A DNA stretch of 41,465 nucleotides from a virus. The stretch spans positions 1 to 41,465 of the IMG/VR virus record IMGVR_UViG_3300025648_000044; one strand, given 5' to 3'. Position 1 is the first letter of the stretch. Each line of letters starts with the position of its first letter. This document shows, one piece after another, positions 161 to 41,465 of this stretch. The position numbers and the translations under genes were made by a program. A model generated the notes under the pieces. That model saw nothing but the letters and a program-made list of their open reading frames with translations. It did no database searches and was not told where the DNA came from.

Positions 161-526
161 TTATTTTGGAGCGAGCGCCAACGAGTGGTTTTCCCGCATG
201 AACGCTTCGAAGCCTTCCTTGACCGGAACCCGGTAGAATGCACGACCGCTGCCGGTGAGCTGCGGCCGTTTTGCAGCGATCATGCCGAGGACGTTCTCGC
301 GGGTCACTTTCAAGCGGCGGGCCAGCTCGTCAATGGCGGCCATCGGCACCCGGACATAATCGTGACGGCCGGCAATATCGAAAGCCACGAGCTTGCCCTC
401 CTCGATCAGATCAATGACGTGCCGATCGGAAACCTCCCACCTGGCCGCGACCTCGCCCACGGTCAAGACCGTGCGATCCTTGGCAAACGCCAGGCTGGGG
501 AAGTCGAGTTGTTGGGGAGAAAACAT
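161..526 (-). CDS. Excisionase/MerR-like small DNA-binding protein
   Basis: A 121-aa protein at the distal end of the early operon. Residues about 16-50 (LTVGEVAARWEVSDRHVIDL, then a short wing) have the pattern of the excisionase/MerR-type winged helix-turn-helix. A second helical, basic stretch follows. The frame is open further upstream to 661. The ATG at 526 is preferred because the previous gene stops at 528-530 and the junction reads TAAAATG, a one-base gap typical of translational coupling. Being next to the putative left terminus, it could be an architectural or transposition accessory factor or a regulator; the family signature does not decide between these. Confidence 0.7.
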   Translation of the reverse strand: MFSPQQLDFPSLAFAKDRTVLTVGEVAARWEVSDRHVIDLIEEGKLVAFDIAGRHDYVRVPMAAIDELARRLKVTRENVLGMIAAKRPQLTGSGRAFYRVPVKEGFEAFMRENHSLALAPK

Positions 527-527
527 T

Positions 528-1070
528 TTAAAAGGGTTGTCCGGCCATCGCCGGCGCGTTGGCTTTGACCTTACGCAAGAGACCGAGGAGCGCGGCGGCG
601 TCCAAGTCCTGCCAATAAATCGTGCCCCAGATATCGGCCGAGATTTTCGACACGTAATCATCGCCGGCAGCCGCGAGGATGGACCGGATCAAACCTTCTT
701 TTTTCTGCATGTCCGGGTTGTCCCAAAAAGTCTGGGCCCGGATGTCGTCGGGGTAGACCAGCAAGCCGCGAATCTTGCGTTCATCGCCCCACAACAAAAG
801 CAGCCGGTTGAACTGGTCATTATTAAAACCGGTGTGGCTCATGTCCCGGCCTAGGGCGTGGATGTGGCAGGCGTGGCGCAAATCCTCGGCTTCGATCGCC
901 CGGCAACCCTGATCGGCGATTGTCTGGGCCAGCCGCCAGACCGCCTGGTGATGAGGGCCGGCATCCTGGACGGCCTCGGCGACCAGCCGGCCCTTGATCC
1001 AGCGCCATTGATTTGCCCGGACCACCTTGCCCCAGCAGCGCCAATATTTGCTATTCTGGTTGTCGTTCAT
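528..1070 (-). CDS. Hypothetical early protein
   Basis: A 180-aa protein without a family I can name. It is rich in Trp, His and Asp/Glu, with several amphipathic helices (for example around ADQGCRAIEAEDLRHACHIH and FNRLLLLWGDERKIRGLL). No signal peptide or membrane segment is present. The ATG at 1070 overlaps the stop of the upstream gene by four bases (ATGA at 1067-1070). An in-frame ATG at 1088 would add six residues but lies inside the previous gene. It is co-transcribed with the whole early operon, and a role in replication or host take-over is only a guess from position. Confidence 0.65.
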   Translation of the reverse strand: MNDNQNSKYWRCWGKVVRANQWRWIKGRLVAEAVQDAGPHHQAVWRLAQTIADQGCRAIEAEDLRHACHIHALGRDMSHTGFNNDQFNRLLLLWGDERKIRGLLVYPDDIRAQTFWDNPDMQKKEGLIRSILAAAGDDYVSKISADIWGTIYWQDLDAAALLGLLRKVKANAPAMAGQPF

Positions 1071-8776: not shown

Positions 8777-10969
8777 TTATGTGACTAACTCCGCCAGCTC
8801 GCGCGCCCGCGCCGCACTCGCGGCCAGACGATCACGTTTGCTGGCAAATTCTTTTGGTGTCGGCGCGTCGAGCGGCGTACGTCTCGAGACGGGCCGGGGC
8901 GGCAGCGCGGCTGCCGGGCAACTAGCGTTGCGGCCACCTGCGGCTTCGCCGCCATCGGTTTGCAGCCCCGCTGCATTGGTGATCTCCACGACGTTGCCGC
9001 GACCGTCGCGCGCCGAGGCGCTGCGCACGGAAGGCTGGCCCGGACGCGGCATGGACCGGAAGGCCGTGGCGACAAACCTGTCCTGCTTGCGCCGCACCAG
9101 GTCGCCGCGATCCACCGCGCCGGCGCCGTAGCGGTCTTCGACCGTCTCGACGCGGACGCCGGCGGGCGCGCTGGCGACCTCAAGCTTGGGCCCGGGAATC
9201 TCGCGGGGCGCGACGAACATGAATTCATCCATCTGCCAGCCCTGAAAATTCGCGGAGTTGTTCGGCGAGGTGCGGTTGAAGATGGCCGCGCCGAGATTGG
9301 GATCGGTCTCGTCGAACTTGTAATAGAGTTCGTAGCCGTCGCCCAGGTGCGCGAATTCCTCCGCGCGAAATTGATAGGCGGTGCGGCGGTATTCGACGTT
9401 GATGTAACCGCCGGTAACGGTGGTCTTGCGCAGCTCGCCCGGCAGGCACGCGGCGAAGAGGCGCGGCGTGAGCGGCAGCAGGCCGACCCGGCTCAAATCA
9501 TCATGGTGCGCCTCGTAGCGTGATTTGCCGGGAGTGGCGCTGGGCATCTCCCATGTCCGGCGGAACGCCTCGGCGATGCAGTCGGCGAGCTGGGCCTGCG
9601 AGGCAAAATGAAGGTCGCGCGGGGTGTGACTACCGGCGCGCACGCGACGAAGTTGTTTGCCCGGCAGTTCAAATTCACCGGCGTAGCGGCCGATGCACTG
9701 ATACTGCCGCGCGACGATGGCAAGAATGTTTTGCAGCGAATTGAAGTGCGTCTCGATGTGCTTCTGGTGGGCCTTGGTCTTGTAGAGCACCTTGACGCCG
9801 CACAGGCCGAGACCGGCGCTGATCGTGTTCATCTGGTCTTTGGCCATGCCGGGCCGCTCCAACTGCTCCTCGACCAGCCAGTCGCCGTCGCGCTGCCAGC
9901 CGGAAATCTTGTTCGCCTTCCAGATGCCCTGCTCAAACTCGACGAACGGCGGCACGCCGCCCAGCGACTGGCACATCTTGTAAAACGTCCGGAGGATGTC
10001 GGCGGCGGTGTAGCTTTCGCGCAGGCGCGCGACCAGTTCCACGGCCTGCCAGACCTTGTGCTTGGCCCAGAGCGCGTAAAGTCCCTGGCGCGACAAAATC
10101 ACCTCGCCGTCGTGTTCCACGTAGAACGGATGATTGGCGCTCATGTCGTCCATCGATAGCGTGTAGGCGGCGGGCATCTCGAAGCGGTCGCCGTTGGGCA
10201 GGCGGCAGGTCCAGTCGCGCACGGAGGAATGACCGTAGAGCTGCGAATGTTTCGGGCCGCGCACCCTGGCTTCCATTTCGGGCGTGACCTGCCGCAGGAA
10301 ATTCACGAAGGGCACCGGCTGATAACCGGCGCGAAGTTTTTCGCCGAGCTTGGCCGGGCATTCCGGCTCGTAGGCGAAGTTTTGCAGCGCGGTGGCGATC
10401 TTGGCGGTTCGGCGGTCGTTGGCGGCGCGGGCGCTGCTAGCGCCCATCGTGGCGAGATAGATTTCCACCAGCTTGGTGCGCACCGGTTCCTGCACCAGCA
10501 AAAATTCCCATTCACATTCGCGGCCGCCATCCTTGATCGGCGCGAGCCGTTCGGGCGTGAGTTCGCCATCGGCGAGCTTGCCGAATTTCTTCACGAGCCG
10601 GTGCAGCGTGGGTGCCGACGTGCCCACGATCCGGGCCACTTCGTCCAGGCTGAAGCGGTCGAGGTAGGATTTGCCGCTTTCATCCCTGGCCCGCGCCTCG
10701 CGCAGGATGCGGCACCAGGCCGCGCCCTTGTCCAGCGCCAGGCGTTTCATCGCCGGCATGGGTTCGGGCGTCAAAAGAACAGCCGGGCGGGCATACGCTT
10801 CCGCGCTTCGAGAGAGTGCCTTGTTCGGGGACTGACTAGCCGCTTCCGCAGTGTCGCCACTTTTGCCCCTGCCGTTGTCTCGCTCGTCGGCCCGCGCCGG
10901 CTGAAAGTCAGAGCTTGACGGGCCATTGAATTTGGCGACAGGCTTGATGGTGTAATTGAGGATGCTCAT
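8777..10969 (-). CDS. MuA-like DDE transposase
   Basis: A 730-aa protein that carries out strand transfer during integration and replicative transposition. A helix-turn-helix lies at about 105-130 (FSLDEVARIVGTSAPTLHRL). The RNase-H-like catalytic core runs from about 260 to 410: LSMDDMSANHPFYVEHDG with Asp 274/275, FVEFEQGIWKA at about 342-352, and the helix HQKHIETHFNSLQ with Glu 406. The spacings (about 71 and 60 residues) are close to those of MuA, but the second acidic residue appears to be Glu 346 in EQG instead of Asp in DN/RG. A beta-barrel-like region follows (about 500-590). The C-terminal 130 residues are low-complexity and partly encoded by dispersed repeats (8916-8939, 8960-8974). 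ATGA overlap with the upstream gene. Confidence 0.92.
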   Translation of the reverse strand: MSILNYTIKPVAKFNGPSSSDFQPARADERDNGRGKSGDTAEAASQSPNKALSRSAEAYARPAVLLTPEPMPAMKRLALDKGAAWCRILREARARDESGKSYLDRFSLDEVARIVGTSAPTLHRLVKKFGKLADGELTPERLAPIKDGGRECEWEFLLVQEPVRTKLVEIYLATMGASSARAANDRRTAKIATALQNFAYEPECPAKLGEKLRAGYQPVPFVNFLRQVTPEMEARVRGPKHSQLYGHSSVRDWTCRLPNGDRFEMPAAYTLSMDDMSANHPFYVEHDGEVILSRQGLYALWAKHKVWQAVELVARLRESYTAADILRTFYKMCQSLGGVPPFVEFEQGIWKANKISGWQRDGDWLVEEQLERPGMAKDQMNTISAGLGLCGVKVLYKTKAHQKHIETHFNSLQNILAIVARQYQCIGRYAGEFELPGKQLRRVRAGSHTPRDLHFASQAQLADCIAEAFRRTWEMPSATPGKSRYEAHHDDLSRVGLLPLTPRLFAACLPGELRKTTVTGGYINVEYRRTAYQFRAEEFAHLGDGYELYYKFDETDPNLGAAIFNRTSPNNSANFQGWQMDEFMFVAPREIPGPKLEVASAPAGVRVETVEDRYGAGAVDRGDLVRRKQDRFVATAFRSMPRPGQPSVRSASARDGRGNVVEITNAAGLQTDGGEAAGGRNASCPAAALPPRPVSRRTPLDAPTPKEFASKRDRLAASAARARELAELVT
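8916..8939 (+). repeat. Dispersed GC-rich repeat, copy inside the transposase gene
   Basis: A 24-base element with core ACTAGCGTTGCGGCCACC, matched with one mismatch by the reverse complement of 13165-13188 inside another early gene. A second shared word, GCAGCGGGGCTGCAA, lies close by on the opposite strand (8960-8974) and again at 20561-20575 between the large terminase and portal genes. The region encodes a low-complexity part of the transposase C-terminus. Confidence 0.65.
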
Positions 10970-12121: not shown

Positions 12122-12556
12122 CTAGACAAAGGCCGGTCGCGGTGGCGCGAAAAATTCGGTTTGTTCGGGAACGGTGGCCCTCCGCAAGGAGTGGCGGCGC
12201 AGGAACTCGCGGGCGATGCTCGCGGAGGTCAGGCGATAGACGCACAGGTGCGCGGCGTTGCGGCCTTCGCGCGTGCTGACGACCTTGTCCGGAAAGAATT
12301 TGCCAGCGTGCTCGTGGCCAACGTGTTCGATCACGCTCGCGGTTTTCAGGATGTGCGCCGCCGAGCCCGCGATGCCCGTGCCCGGCGAGCCGCCGGTGGC
12401 CACGGCGCTGCGCGCGGAATCAGGAACGATGTCGGTCGTGAAGGTTGGCTGATCACTGGCCAGCGCGGCTTGCACCAGCTCCACGCAGAAGTTTTTCAGC
12501 TCGTCATTTTTCCAGACGATCTCGCGCTCAATGGCGGTTTGGAAGCCGGCGCTCAT
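12122..12556 (-). CDS. Hypothetical early protein
   Basis: A 144-aa protein. The N-terminus is helical (IEREIVWKNDELKNFCVELV); a Gly/Ala/Ser-rich linker separates it from a C-terminal part (HAGKFFPDKVVSTREGRNAA, HLCVYRLTSASIAREFLRRH) that could be a winged-helix-like fold. The ATG at 12556 is preceded by the Shine-Dalgarno GGGAGGG and overlaps the stop of an upstream leftward ORF. It starts a sub-block ParB-like, small protein, transposase, MuB, so it may have a regulatory function, but this is positional inference. Confidence 0.6.
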   Translation of the reverse strand: MSAGFQTAIEREIVWKNDELKNFCVELVQAALASDQPTFTTDIVPDSARSAVATGGSPGTGIAGSAAHILKTASVIEHVGHEHAGKFFPDKVVSTREGRNAAHLCVYRLTSASIAREFLRRHSLRRATVPEQTEFFAPPRPAFV

Positions 12557-12882
12557 TGCTTCCCTCCCGCGCCGGGTTTAGAATTTGCGGATGACGCCAG
12601 AACAGCAGTTGGTATTTGAGACTTGGATGACCGACATTCATTGCCAGCTTGTGGGACTCCGTTCCCAGATCCATAAAGAATTCGCCTTGCGCCAAGCCCA
12701 AGAGATTTTAGCCAGCGAGAAAATCGCCCTGACTCCTGAACAGGGAAAAAAACGCCTCGCGGAGTTAGAGACATATTTCTTCGAGAAATACCAACAAGAG
12801 TTCGAGCATATCGCTCAAGTTGCTCGCGCCGCGCATCAGAGAAGATTTCCGCCACCGCCGGGTCAGTCGAATTAGTTTTCAC
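12553..12882 (-). CDS. Possible early protein (109 aa), antiparallel to another ORF
   Basis: A leftward ORF with GTG at 12882 that overlaps the TGA of the membrane-protein gene (GTGA at 12879-12882), has the Shine-Dalgarno GGAGGTG four bases upstream, and ends in an ATGA overlap with the next gene (12553-12556). Both junctions match the operon's coupling style. Against it, the product is Ser/Arg-rich, uses codons such as TCT, CGA and ACT that are rarer in neighbouring genes, and lacks any recognisable fold. The opposite strand has a more protein-like ORF (12591-12875). Both cannot be equally constrained. Confidence 0.45.
   Translation of the reverse strand: MKTNSTDPAVAEIFSDARREQLERYARTLVGISRRNMSLTPRGVFFPVQESGRFSRWLKSLGLGARRILYGSGNGVPQAGNECRSSKSQIPTAVLASSANSKPGAGGKQ
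12591..12875 (+). CDS. Possible rightward gene embedded in the early operon
   Basis: A 94-aa ORF starting MTPEQQLVFETWMTDIHCQL. It is Glu/Gln/Lys/Leu-rich and strongly helical (EFALRQAQEILASEKIALTP, then RLAELETYFFEKYQQEFEHI), with a realistic protein composition and a short Pro-rich tail. It reads against the surrounding operon and would need its own promoter; no clear promoter or Shine-Dalgarno is seen. It could be a moron inserted in the opposite direction, or the shadow of the leftward ORF at 12553-12882. Confidence 0.48.
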   Translation: MTPEQQLVFETWMTDIHCQLVGLRSQIHKEFALRQAQEILASEKIALTPEQGKKRLAELETYFFEKYQQEFEHIAQVARAAHQRRFPPPPGQSN

Positions 12883-13121
12883 TTGGCACCTCCGTGAGGT
12901 TTTTCCGCTTTCCGCTTTTGCCCCGCCCGCGCCCGGGCTTCGCGCTCCTCGTGGCGGTAATGGGCGATGATCCTCCAACGCTCCCAAATTTTTTCAGCCC
13001 AGTAGATGCGGAACAAAACAAACAACGCCGCCAGCGCCACTACAGCGACCACGATGGCCGCCGTCATAATCCAAAGAGGGTTGCGTGATGGAACAGTGAA
13101 AATGGCGGCGGCGAGGTTCAT
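12879..13121 (-). CDS. Small membrane protein with basic cytoplasmic tail
   Basis: An 80-aa protein with one hydrophobic helix (LWIMTAAIVVAVVALAALFV) followed by an amphipathic Trp/Arg-rich segment and a Lys/Arg/Glu-rich tail, so the C-terminus is likely cytoplasmic. The start shares one base with the preceding stop (TAATG at 13119-13123). Function is unknown; its early position suggests host modification or exclusion rather than lysis. Confidence 0.65.
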   Translation of the reverse strand: MNLAAAIFTVPSRNPLWIMTAAIVVAVVALAALFVLFRIYWAEKIWERWRIIAHYRHEEREARARAGQKRKAEKPHGGAK

Positions 13122-13375
13122 TAGTGGCAGCGGTTTGAGGTCGGGATGCGAACCAGATGGGGCGAGGTGGCCGCAACGCCAGTTGCCCAGCGCGGGGGTT
13201 GTTTGCCGACAGCCTTATGGTTCAGGGCGGCGAATTTTTTACCGATGGCGGCGTTGACCTGGGCGAGATCCGCGCTGGTCAGGTCGCCGTCCACCGTGGC
13301 CAGTTGCCGCAACTGGTGAATCTCACCAGCGCTGGTGGCGTCGTGAAGTTGAACAAAATAATCCGACTTGCTCAT
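13121..13375 (-). CDS. Hypothetical small early protein
   Basis: An 84-aa protein from the ATG at 13375 (MSKSDYFVQLHDATSAGEIH); a frame extension to 13399 exists but the ATGA overlap with the upstream stop at 13372-13375 favours this start. It has two predicted helices (EIHQLRQLATVDGDLTSADL and LAQVNAAIGKKFAALNHKAV). The last 20-25 residues are encoded across a dispersed repeat (13165-13188), so the C-terminus may have been replaced by a repeat insertion. Confidence 0.58.
   Translation of the reverse strand: MSKSDYFVQLHDATSAGEIHQLRQLATVDGDLTSADLAQVNAAIGKKFAALNHKAVGKQPPRWATGVAATSPHLVRIPTSNRCH
13165..13188 (-). repeat. Dispersed GC-rich repeat, copy at the 3' end of an early gene
   Basis: Its reverse complement matches 8916-8939 at 23 of 24 positions (core ACTGGCGTTGCGGCCACC). 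It lies in the C-terminal coding part of the small gene at 13121-13375. Confidence 0.65.
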
Positions 13376-13668
13376 GCGGCCTCCGGATACGGGTTCCAAA
13401 AATCAATGATCACCGTGTCATCAAGCGAGCTGGCCACCGACATGCCGTCGCTGATGAAATGCCAGCCTTCGTAGCCGCTGCCGTCTTTTACCCAGCGCAC
13501 GGCCGCGGTGAACGGATTAACGCTGGTCCAATCATCTTCCTTGATGATCACGCGACCGATAGCCACGATGGCGGAGCCGTCCTTCAGCGGCTCGTGGGTG
13601 GCCCAAAGGTTGCGGACCAGCTCCGCACGCGTCGGGGCCGCGCAAATAGGATCAGGGTTTGTATTCAT
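13372..13668 (-). CDS. Hypothetical early protein
   Basis: A 98-aa protein (MNTNPDPICAAPTRAELVRN) with a mixed alpha/beta pattern: an N-terminal helix, then strands SAIVAIGRVIIKEDDW and DTVIIDFWNPYP. No family is recognised. It has the strong Shine-Dalgarno CAGGAGGT just before the ATG, which itself overlaps the stop of the RHH regulator gene (ATGA, 13665-13668), so it is translated from the same mRNA as the regulator. Confidence 0.62.
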   Translation of the reverse strand: MNTNPDPICAAPTRAELVRNLWATHEPLKDGSAIVAIGRVIIKEDDWTSVNPFTAAVRWVKDGSGYEGWHFISDGMSVASSLDDTVIIDFWNPYPEAA

Positions 13669-13841
13669 GCGACCTCCTGGAGTTTTCTTTCGAGCGCCTT
13701 GCGGACAATTTTACTGCGGTCCGAATCTTCGCTTTGCACTACCGCTTCAATTTTTGAAATCCACGACGTAGGTATCCATGTCCCGATGAAGACGCAATCT
13801 GCTCGCCGGTACGCTCCGCGTTTCTGCTTCTTGCTTGCCAT
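13665..13841 (-). CDS. Ribbon-helix-helix regulator, first gene of the early operon
   Basis: A 58-aa protein starting MASKKQKRGAYRRADCVFIG. After a basic arm, the segment CVFIGTWIPTSWISKIEAVV followed by DSDRSKIVRKALERKLQEVA fits the ribbon-helix-helix fold (one beta strand, two helices). It closely parallels the divergent gene at 13920-14192 (VFVGIWISEALAKKIESA, PRSQFMRDAIADYL). It is the promoter-proximal gene of the whole early/transposition operon, the position of ner in Mu. No Shine-Dalgarno precedes the ATG, and a possible promoter lies so close that the mRNA may be leaderless. It likely binds the operator at 13856-13922 and sets the lysis-lysogeny choice (inference). Confidence 0.75.
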   Translation of the reverse strand: MASKKQKRGAYRRADCVFIGTWIPTSWISKIEAVVQSEDSDRSKIVRKALERKLQEVA

Positions 13842-13848
13842 GCCGGCA

Positions 13849-13878
13849 ATAGTTACACACAGTTTAACACCCAGTCAA
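13849..13878 (-). promoter_or_regulatory. Candidate early promoter (leftward)
   Basis: On the minus strand, TTGACT (13878-13873) and TAACTA (13855-13850) are separated by 17 bases. The -35 matches sigma70 well; the -10 is poor. The 17-base spacer contains the left operator arm, so bound repressor would block the polymerase. The expected transcription start is close to the ATG at 13841, implying a leaderless or nearly leaderless message. Confidence 0.35.
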
Positions 13879-13922
13879 CAAAAACTTGAAATTTATTTTC
13901 AGGGTGTTAAACAAGCTGTGTG
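13856..13922. promoter_or_regulatory. Divergent control region with paired inverted operator arms
   Basis: GTTTAACACCC (13862-13872) and GGGTGTTAAAC (13902-13912) are perfect inverted copies, with centres 40 bases apart (about four helical turns). Outside them CACACAG (13856-13862) and CTGTGTG (13916-13922) are again perfectly inverted, offset by four bases. Between lies an A/T-rich stretch (TTGAAATTTATTTTCA). The two RHH genes start on either side. The layout is that of a bidirectional operator allowing cooperative or looped binding. The GTG start of the rightward gene (13920) lies inside the right outer arm. TTGAAA (13886-13891) is a possible -35 for the rightward direction. Confidence 0.78.
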
Positions 13923-14192
13923 GCAAATCAGCGTGCATCTGATCAGGTCTTTGTTGGAATTTGGATTTCCGAGGCATTGGCCAAGAAAATAGAATCCGCC
14001 AGAGATGGTGTTCCGCGCTCGCAATTCATGCGTGACGCGATAGCTGATTATCTGCGACAAAAAGGTTTTTCAGTTGGTGAAGAAAAGAATGCACCGAGCC
14101 GGGTTAAACTTTTTAATTCCTCAAAAGTCCGAGCCGCCAGCAAAGCGGGTGCTGACAAGATTCGCAGGCGCCACATGCCTGCTGGCGAATGA
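13920..14192 (+). CDS. Ribbon-helix-helix regulator, divergent from the early operon (putative repressor)
   Basis: A 90-aa protein beginning MANQRASDQVFVGIWISEAL from a GTG. The RHH core (QVFVGIWISEALAKKIESAR, PRSQFMRDAIADYLRQKG) occupies residues about 8-45 and mirrors that of the leftward gene at 13665-13841, including the VF[IV]G.WI strand and the KIE and RS motifs. A basic C-terminal extension (KVRAASKAGADKIRRRH) is absent from its partner. By position it corresponds to the Mu c repressor opposite ner, but it is of a different fold from Mu c. No Shine-Dalgarno precedes the GTG. Its 3' end overlaps an antisense ORF (14113-14292). Confidence 0.75.
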   Translation: MANQRASDQVFVGIWISEALAKKIESARDGVPRSQFMRDAIADYLRQKGFSVGEEKNAPSRVKLFNSSKVRAASKAGADKIRRRHMPAGE

Positions 14193-14292
14193 TGCGCGCG
14201 ATCGCTCCAAACTCGTCTGCGACTTCCAGTTTTTCCTGCTGGCTCATTCCCGTGGTGGTTTCCACCGCAATTTTTTTAAGCCCTTTATCCAT
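14113..14292 (-). CDS. Possible antisense small Cys-rich protein
   Basis: A 59-aa ORF starting MDKGLKKIAVETTTGMSQQE with a later helix and ACGACESC Cys motif. Its composition is protein-like, and it lies on the strand of the early operon but upstream of the early promoter, overlapping the 3' end of the RHH gene by 80 bases. GGAG is only one base from the ATG, a poor spacing. The frame stays open to 14634 but that part reads like shadow sequence. Confidence 0.33.
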   Translation of the reverse strand: MDKGLKKIAVETTTGMSQQEKLEVADEFGAIARIIRQQACGACESCQHPLCWRLGLLRN

Positions 14293-14313
14293 GCTCCAGA
14301 AAAAGCAAATTAA

Positions 14314-14607
14314 ATGCCGGTTATGAAACAGATCATCTTCATTCCGCTCTGCCTGATTGCCGCCATTGTGTTGCTCTGCGGCTGCGCGGGCACTTACTTT
14401 ACTTTTGATCAGGCTCGCCGGGTGGAGGTTGGCATGACGGAGGCCGAGTTGCAAAATACCATGGGCAGTCCGAATCTGATCACCGCGCGTGGCAATAATT
14501 GTATCTGGGTTTATTCCTTCGCTGATGGCTTTGGCCGGGCTAGAAGCGTTTCTTTTGTTTTGTCTGGTGGAAAAGTTATTGAGGTTCCGAGCATCCCCTT
14601 CAAATAA
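14314..14607 (+). CDS. BamE/SmpA-like lipoprotein (moron)
   Basis: A 97-aa protein. The N-terminus is a lipoprotein signal (KQIIFIPLCLIAAIVLLCGC, lipobox LCGC with the second Cys as the likely lipidated residue). The mature part, FDQARRVEVGMTEAELQNTM followed by GSPNLITARGNNCIWVYSF, has the BamE/SmpA-OmlA fold pattern (VxxGMTxxEVxxxxGxP ... WxY). BamE proteins sit in the outer membrane; a phage copy expressed from the prophage may alter the envelope, as in lysogenic conversion (inference). An alternative ATG at 14323 gives a more standard signal peptide, but AAATTAAATG at 14314 resembles other leaders of this phage. Confidence 0.7.
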   Translation: MPVMKQIIFIPLCLIAAIVLLCGCAGTYFTFDQARRVEVGMTEAELQNTMGSPNLITARGNNCIWVYSFADGFGRARSVSFVLSGGKVIEVPSIPFK

Positions 14608-14622
14608 ATAGTCTTTCTTACC

Positions 14623-41178: not shown

Positions 41179-41465
<287 letters not shown>

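Follow-up and report, generated by a model that had tools for sequence, protein, structure and literature searches.

Organization of the divergent gene pair and its source element

The window, i.e., the whole stretch of DNA that was analyzed, is an IMG/VR virus record of 41,465 bp. Two small genes, here termed P1 and P2, lie in it with the coordinates, the divergent orientation and the 78-base gap that an earlier reading made from the letters alone (the sequence-only reading) had given for them. Early genes run leftward from P1 and late genes rightward from P2, and the position proposed for a switch, between early and late genes, was borne out. The features of the region, including ribbon-helix-helix (RHH) and helix-turn-helix (HTH) assignments discussed below, are as follows:

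13665-13841, minus strand: P1, an RHH protein of 58 aa whose gene opens the leftward early operon, putative Cro/Ner analogue
13920-14192, plus strand: P2, a 90-aa RHH protein with a C-terminal tail, diverging from the early operon, putative maintenance-repressor analogue
13862-13872, plus strand: left operator arm (putative), GTTTAACACCC, within the -35/-10 spacer of the proposed P1 promoter
13902-13912, minus strand: right operator arm (putative), GGGTGTTAAAC (read as GTTTAACACCC on the minus strand), which overlaps the -10 of the proposed P2 promoter
13850-13878, minus strand: proposed P1 promoter, -35 TTGACT (13878-13873), 17-nt spacer, -10 TAACTA (13855-13850)
13886-13913, plus strand: proposed P2 promoter, -35 TTGAAA (13886-13891), 16-nt spacer, -10 TAAACA (13908-13913)
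12545-14619: block without a DNA match to the closest relative (the L002 prophage), with flanks 85% and 77% identical; L002 has an HTH/HTH pair at this site

From its gene content, we regard the element in the window as a Mu-like (transposable) phage of Verrucomicrobia, present as a prophage. Both a MuB-like gene (PHROG DNA transposition protein, E = 6.9e-19, plus a weak MuB_C match) and a Gam gene (Phage_Mu_Gam, E = 2.5e-26) were found, and the closest transposase relatives of the virus lie in genomes of Verrucomicrobia subdivision 3. The 730-aa protein at the MuA position (8777-10969, minus strand, just ahead of MuB) had no matches in Pfam, PHROG or PDB, and MuA was therefore assigned by position only; relatives 84%, 77% and 68% identical to this protein exist, and we take it to be a divergent transposase family. 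The early operon has the gene of an HTH_17 protein at its far end (161-661, minus strand). The gene next after P2 (14314-14607, plus strand) encodes a BamE-like lipoprotein, which is possibly expressed from the prophage. The C-terminal part of a glyceraldehyde-3-phosphate dehydrogenase at 41179-41418 (minus strand; E = 5.5e-11) is probably host flank past the right end of the prophage.

P1 and P2 are RHH proteins

Both proteins had been read as RHH regulators from a shared motif (VF[IV]G.WI / KIE / RS / R.A). The motif is real: in an hhalign comparison of the two profiles, P1 and P2 line up in the same register, with a probability of 97.4 and 32% identity. Taken alone, P1 gave no Pfam matches, and P2 matched RHH_1 with E = 0.001, just short of the Pfam cut-off. 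The assignment became firm once homologues were added: RHH_1 was matched by 22 of 32 P1 homologues (best E 5.1e-8) and 15 of 31 P2 homologues (best E 2.3e-7), and the profiles matched solved RHH proteins. Among PDB sequences, the P1 profile matched pRN1 ORF56 best (PDB 2K9I, E = 7.4e-5), and the P2 profile matched the CopG-family RHH chain 6xrw (E = 9.6e-5); neither Arc nor Mnt was among the PDB matches of the two profiles. ORF56, a plasmid copy-control repressor of the CopG family, resembles the window proteins in its strand, which reads G-x-Y. AlphaFold, run on single sequences, gave models of poor quality (pLDDT 55.5 and 63.3), with the two RHH helices present and the strand absent. The matches of their homologues to RHH_1 and of their profiles to PDB chains place P1 and P2 in the RHH/CopG family, which is defined by an N-terminal strand followed by two helices, and uphold the fold claimed for them.

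The divergent RHH/RHH pair recurs in Verrucomicrobia

A comparative search for the same arrangement found the divergent RHH/RHH pair at no fewer than 32 other loci, drawn from Verrucomicrobial genomes and IMG/VR contigs, i.e., 33 in total with the window. The gap between P1 and P2 at these 33 loci is 68-98 bp, with a median of 82. P1 turned up in 12 of the 320 genomes searched for the order and in 14 of the 384 searched for the class; a further 13 pairs came from viral contigs. First scans of viral contigs with P1, P2 and the transposase gave no matches, and a search of 50,697 phage records with P1 and with the P2 homologue from L018 was likewise negative. A phylum-wide P2 search drifted to general RHH proteins and was excluded from the results. 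A distant Mu-like prophage (L011/L018) keeps the pair, at 48% and 33% identity, together with arms (TTTAACGCCCA/TGGGCGTTAAA) closely similar to those of the window.

The two genes had also been described as duplicated paralogues. That they encode related RHH regulators sharing an operator region was sustained; a recent duplication in this phage was not. On a tree of the 66 RHH domains from the 33 loci (32 columns, low support), the P1/P2 label required 2 changes versus 22.3 in shuffles, with the window P1 nearest to the P1s of other phages and the window P2 nearest to P2s; constraining the P1s together was not rejected (p-AU 0.546). Recent duplication was thus rejected by the tree, and the split between P1 and P2 appears to be old and common to the family.

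Putative operator arms and proposed promoters in the gap

The inverted arms reported to lie 40 bases apart in the gap form a perfect 11-bp repeat, with 29 nt between them and 40 bp from start to start. When the gap was shuffled 20,000 times with its dinucleotides preserved, a perfect 11-bp inverted repeat arose in 35 cases, and the only exact matches to TTTAACRCCC in the 41 kb window are the two arms. Arms of the form TTTAAC[AG]CCC are present in L018, L019 and L020, spaced by 41, 40 and 43 bp, respectively, and L039 has a shorter AACACCCA pair with 41 bp spacing. Because similar arms recur at these loci, we consider the arms to be more than a product of chance. The outer CACACAG/CTGTGTG arms that had been pointed out as well are present (13856-13862 and 13915-13921), but their register is shifted by 4 nt from that of the inner arms, and they are not kept in relatives; as a second operator they were rejected on these grounds, and they look incidental. 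In many loci, inspection by eye also showed tandem half-sites, spaced by 10 bp, toward P1. By shuffling, they are significant at three loci alone (L028, L036 and L038), the window not being one of these, and we treat them as a lead only.

Both promoters were proposed by eye; a generic sigma-70 promoter scan of the region reported no sites, neither of the proposed promoters included. All but one of the 33 loci have a -35-like element, at a median distance of 32 nt from the start codon of P1, and a geometry similar to that of the proposed P2 promoter is found in L018. With the P1 ATG 8 nt past the proposed -10, the P1 transcript would be leaderless or nearly so. P2 starts with a GTG at 13920, 6 nt past its own proposed -10, and its transcript would likewise be leaderless or nearly so.

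P1 and P2 probably recognize the same half-sites

In RHH proteins, the element that reads DNA is a strand inserted into the major groove (PMC3325190). Both window proteins have F, G and W at positions -6, -4 and -2 of this strand. Counting back from the first residue of helix A, we take these three positions to be the outward-facing ones. To assess co-variation over 32 columns, each P1 was compared with the P2 from its own locus, with re-paired loci as the reference. In this small and unevenly related set of loci, with phylogeny only partly corrected, position -4, a predicted base contact, was the top co-varying of the 32 columns (z = 7.5 with 33 loci); its z fell to 6.1, 4.8 and 3.9 as near relatives were removed, the last value being that of 11 representatives, and several other columns co-varied too, less strongly.

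The residue at -4 also tracks the operator. A Gly at this position pairs with a TTTAAC/GTTAAA core in the gap at 9/9 loci versus 0/24, in a set subject to the same limits of size and relatedness and on whose weak tree 2 changes suffice for the Gly class. The pattern was first noticed in 11 loci; in the 22 loci fetched afterwards, it was seen in 4/4 versus 0/18 (p = 1.4e-4). Co-variation of the contact residue and the matching operator core together suggest that P1 and P2 probably read the same half-sites, in agreement with the sequence-only reading.

Co-variation extends to putative dimer-interface columns of helix B (B4, B8 and B10), as would be expected if P1 and P2 worked chiefly together in a heteromer and not as homodimers in competition. 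The same helix-B co-variation is predicted by shared phylogeny, and we regard a predominantly heteromeric pair, which would be compatible with a role as a switch, as unlikely.

P2 as the probable repressor and P1 on the early side

Where phage genes could be assigned positions around the pair, the ParB-like, MuA and MuB genes are on the side of P1, and TerL is on that of P2. Two P2 homologues are fused to a Peptidase_S24 domain (L033, E = 2.5e-12; L037, E = 3.9e-12); the fusion genes (643-1422 and 850-1470, respectively) each lie opposite a P1 homologue. Their S24 parts contain a serine within G-[DE]-S-M, a lysine within K-R and, as a candidate cleavage site, Ala-Gly; we take these features to be those of LexA/CI. 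The P2 of the window has no S24 domain and is not itself a repressor of the S24 type. PHROG repressor and CI-like families each match two P2 members.

Two relatives with transposases 84% and 68% identical to that of the window (L002 and L004) carry, at the syntenic site, an HTH_3 repressor in place of P2 and a protein of 56-59 aa in place of P1. The loss of DNA identity with the L002 prophage over 12545-14619, resuming on both sides, appears as in an immunity-cassette swap, with an RHH pair in one phage and an HTH pair in the other.

The polarity of the locus, the S24 fusions and the position of the HTH_3 repressor thus make P2 the most likely maintenance repressor, with P1 as the Cro/Ner analogue. 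The reverse assignment, with P1 maintaining lysogeny and P2 acting as the lytic regulator, might be entertained given that both proteins have RHH domains and probably share their sites. Nevertheless, P1 is predicted to be co-transcribed with the early genes, and both the S24 fusions and the HTH_3 repressors of L002 and L004 are on the P2 side, making such a reversal highly improbable.

Three pairs, those of L022, L024 and L025 (L053, L056 and L057), are chromosomal and lie beside a CheY-like receiver gene. In the same three genomes, an amino-acid kinase/acetyltransferase gene of the arginine-synthesis type adjoins the pair. As these pairs occupy chromosomal regions of the arginine-synthesis type, not every pair is a prophage switch; a chromosomal RHH/RHH pair is perhaps a domesticated one. 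RHH proteins are often antitoxins or segregation proteins, and homologues adjoining a receiver-domain gene in a chromosomal region could be taken to indicate a toxin-antitoxin or partition-type pair unrelated to lysogeny. We give this explanation very little weight: a toxin partner was not seen, both proteins are RHH, and the pair in the window sits at the early/late junction and has S24-fused relatives. With its layout recurring and two loci having a LexA/CI-type self-cleaving domain on the repressor, the arrangement looks like a recurrent immunity switch made of unusual components.

Discussion

We consider it likely that the locus controls the choice between lysis and lysogeny in a Mu-like Verrucomicrobia prophage, and that in it P2 would be the maintenance repressor and P1 the first early protein, both acting as RHH dimers on TTTAACRCCC half-sites. 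What the sequences themselves offer for this reading are the gene layout, the RHH family, the conserved arms, the polarity, the swapping of cassettes, the S24 fusions and the co-variation. P2 would take the place of Mu c or lambda CI, and P1 that of Mu Ner or lambda Cro. The dimers would read their half-sites through alternating residues of the N-terminal strand, i.e., F-x-G-x-W in both proteins. Occupation of the left arm by P2 would shut the early promoter, and occupation of the right arm by P1 or P2 would shut the P2 promoter, the outcome being mutual repression combined with autoregulation. Direct DNA binding, like the promoters and the leaderless transcripts, is something we infer, together with the winning protein and the induction signal.

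The immI region of P22 is the closest precedent, having, like the window with its putative regulators, two small RHH repressors of unequal length in one region. Arc has 53 aa and Mnt about 82 aa, and their promoters are divergent. Arc and Mnt reportedly have different operators; in the window, by contrast, a single core is repeated, and co-variation links the predicted contact residues of the two proteins. Both are established RHH proteins, Mnt having in addition a C-terminal tetramer domain (PMC3325190), and Mnt has been named a maintenance repressor (PMC2629481). In P22, however, the pair provides secondary immunity, controls the antirepressor gene ant and is located in the late operon (PMC8022706), whereas the pair in the window is at the primary early/late junction. 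By analogy, P1 and P2 might control another gene, such as an antirepressor, with the primary repressor encoded elsewhere, and the HTH_17 protein at 161-661 could be cited in favor of this. That protein, however, is encoded at the operon's far end, while the P1/P2 pair heads the early operon with its ParB-like, MuA and MuB genes, and HTH repressor pairs occupy exactly the same site in close relatives. No antirepressor-like gene was recognized in the operon, and no informative Pfam or PHROG match was found for the first genes behind P1. Secondary immunity of the Arc/Mnt type is, in our view, quite improbable.

As in Mu c/Ner and lambda CI/Cro, a divergent repressor and early regulator would share an operator region at the head of the early operon, the larger protein is on the repressor side and the cassette is replaceable. 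Mu c, Ner, CI and Cro are HTH proteins, unlike the regulators in the window, which are both RHH. An RHH lysogeny repressor acting on early genes is known from the archaeal virus SSV1, whose F55 silences early genes and binds tandem repeats, including at its own promoter (PMC5569661). F55 is described there as a single RHH repressor acting at archaeal promoters, with no divergent RHH partner mentioned, and differs in this from the pair in the window.

In a literature search of incomplete coverage, we did not find an RHH/RHH switch or RHH-S24 repressors described, and with such coverage this absence is weak evidence of novelty. A bolder proposal, i.e., an undescribed, recurrent class of lysogeny switch with RHH proteins in the CI and Cro roles, co-evolving strands, SOS-cleavable RHH-S24 repressors and P1/P2 mixed dimers taking part in the decision, is speculative, and we would grant it a modest chance.

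Textbook prophage switches are built from HTH proteins. If our preferred reading of P1 and P2 is correct, there would be a family of switches made wholly of RHH proteins, having traded places as a cassette with the HTH switches of close relatives, with some members joined to a LexA/CI self-cleavage domain. The paired recognition strands and changing operators of this family would then provide a natural data set on how competing regulators keep a common DNA specificity.
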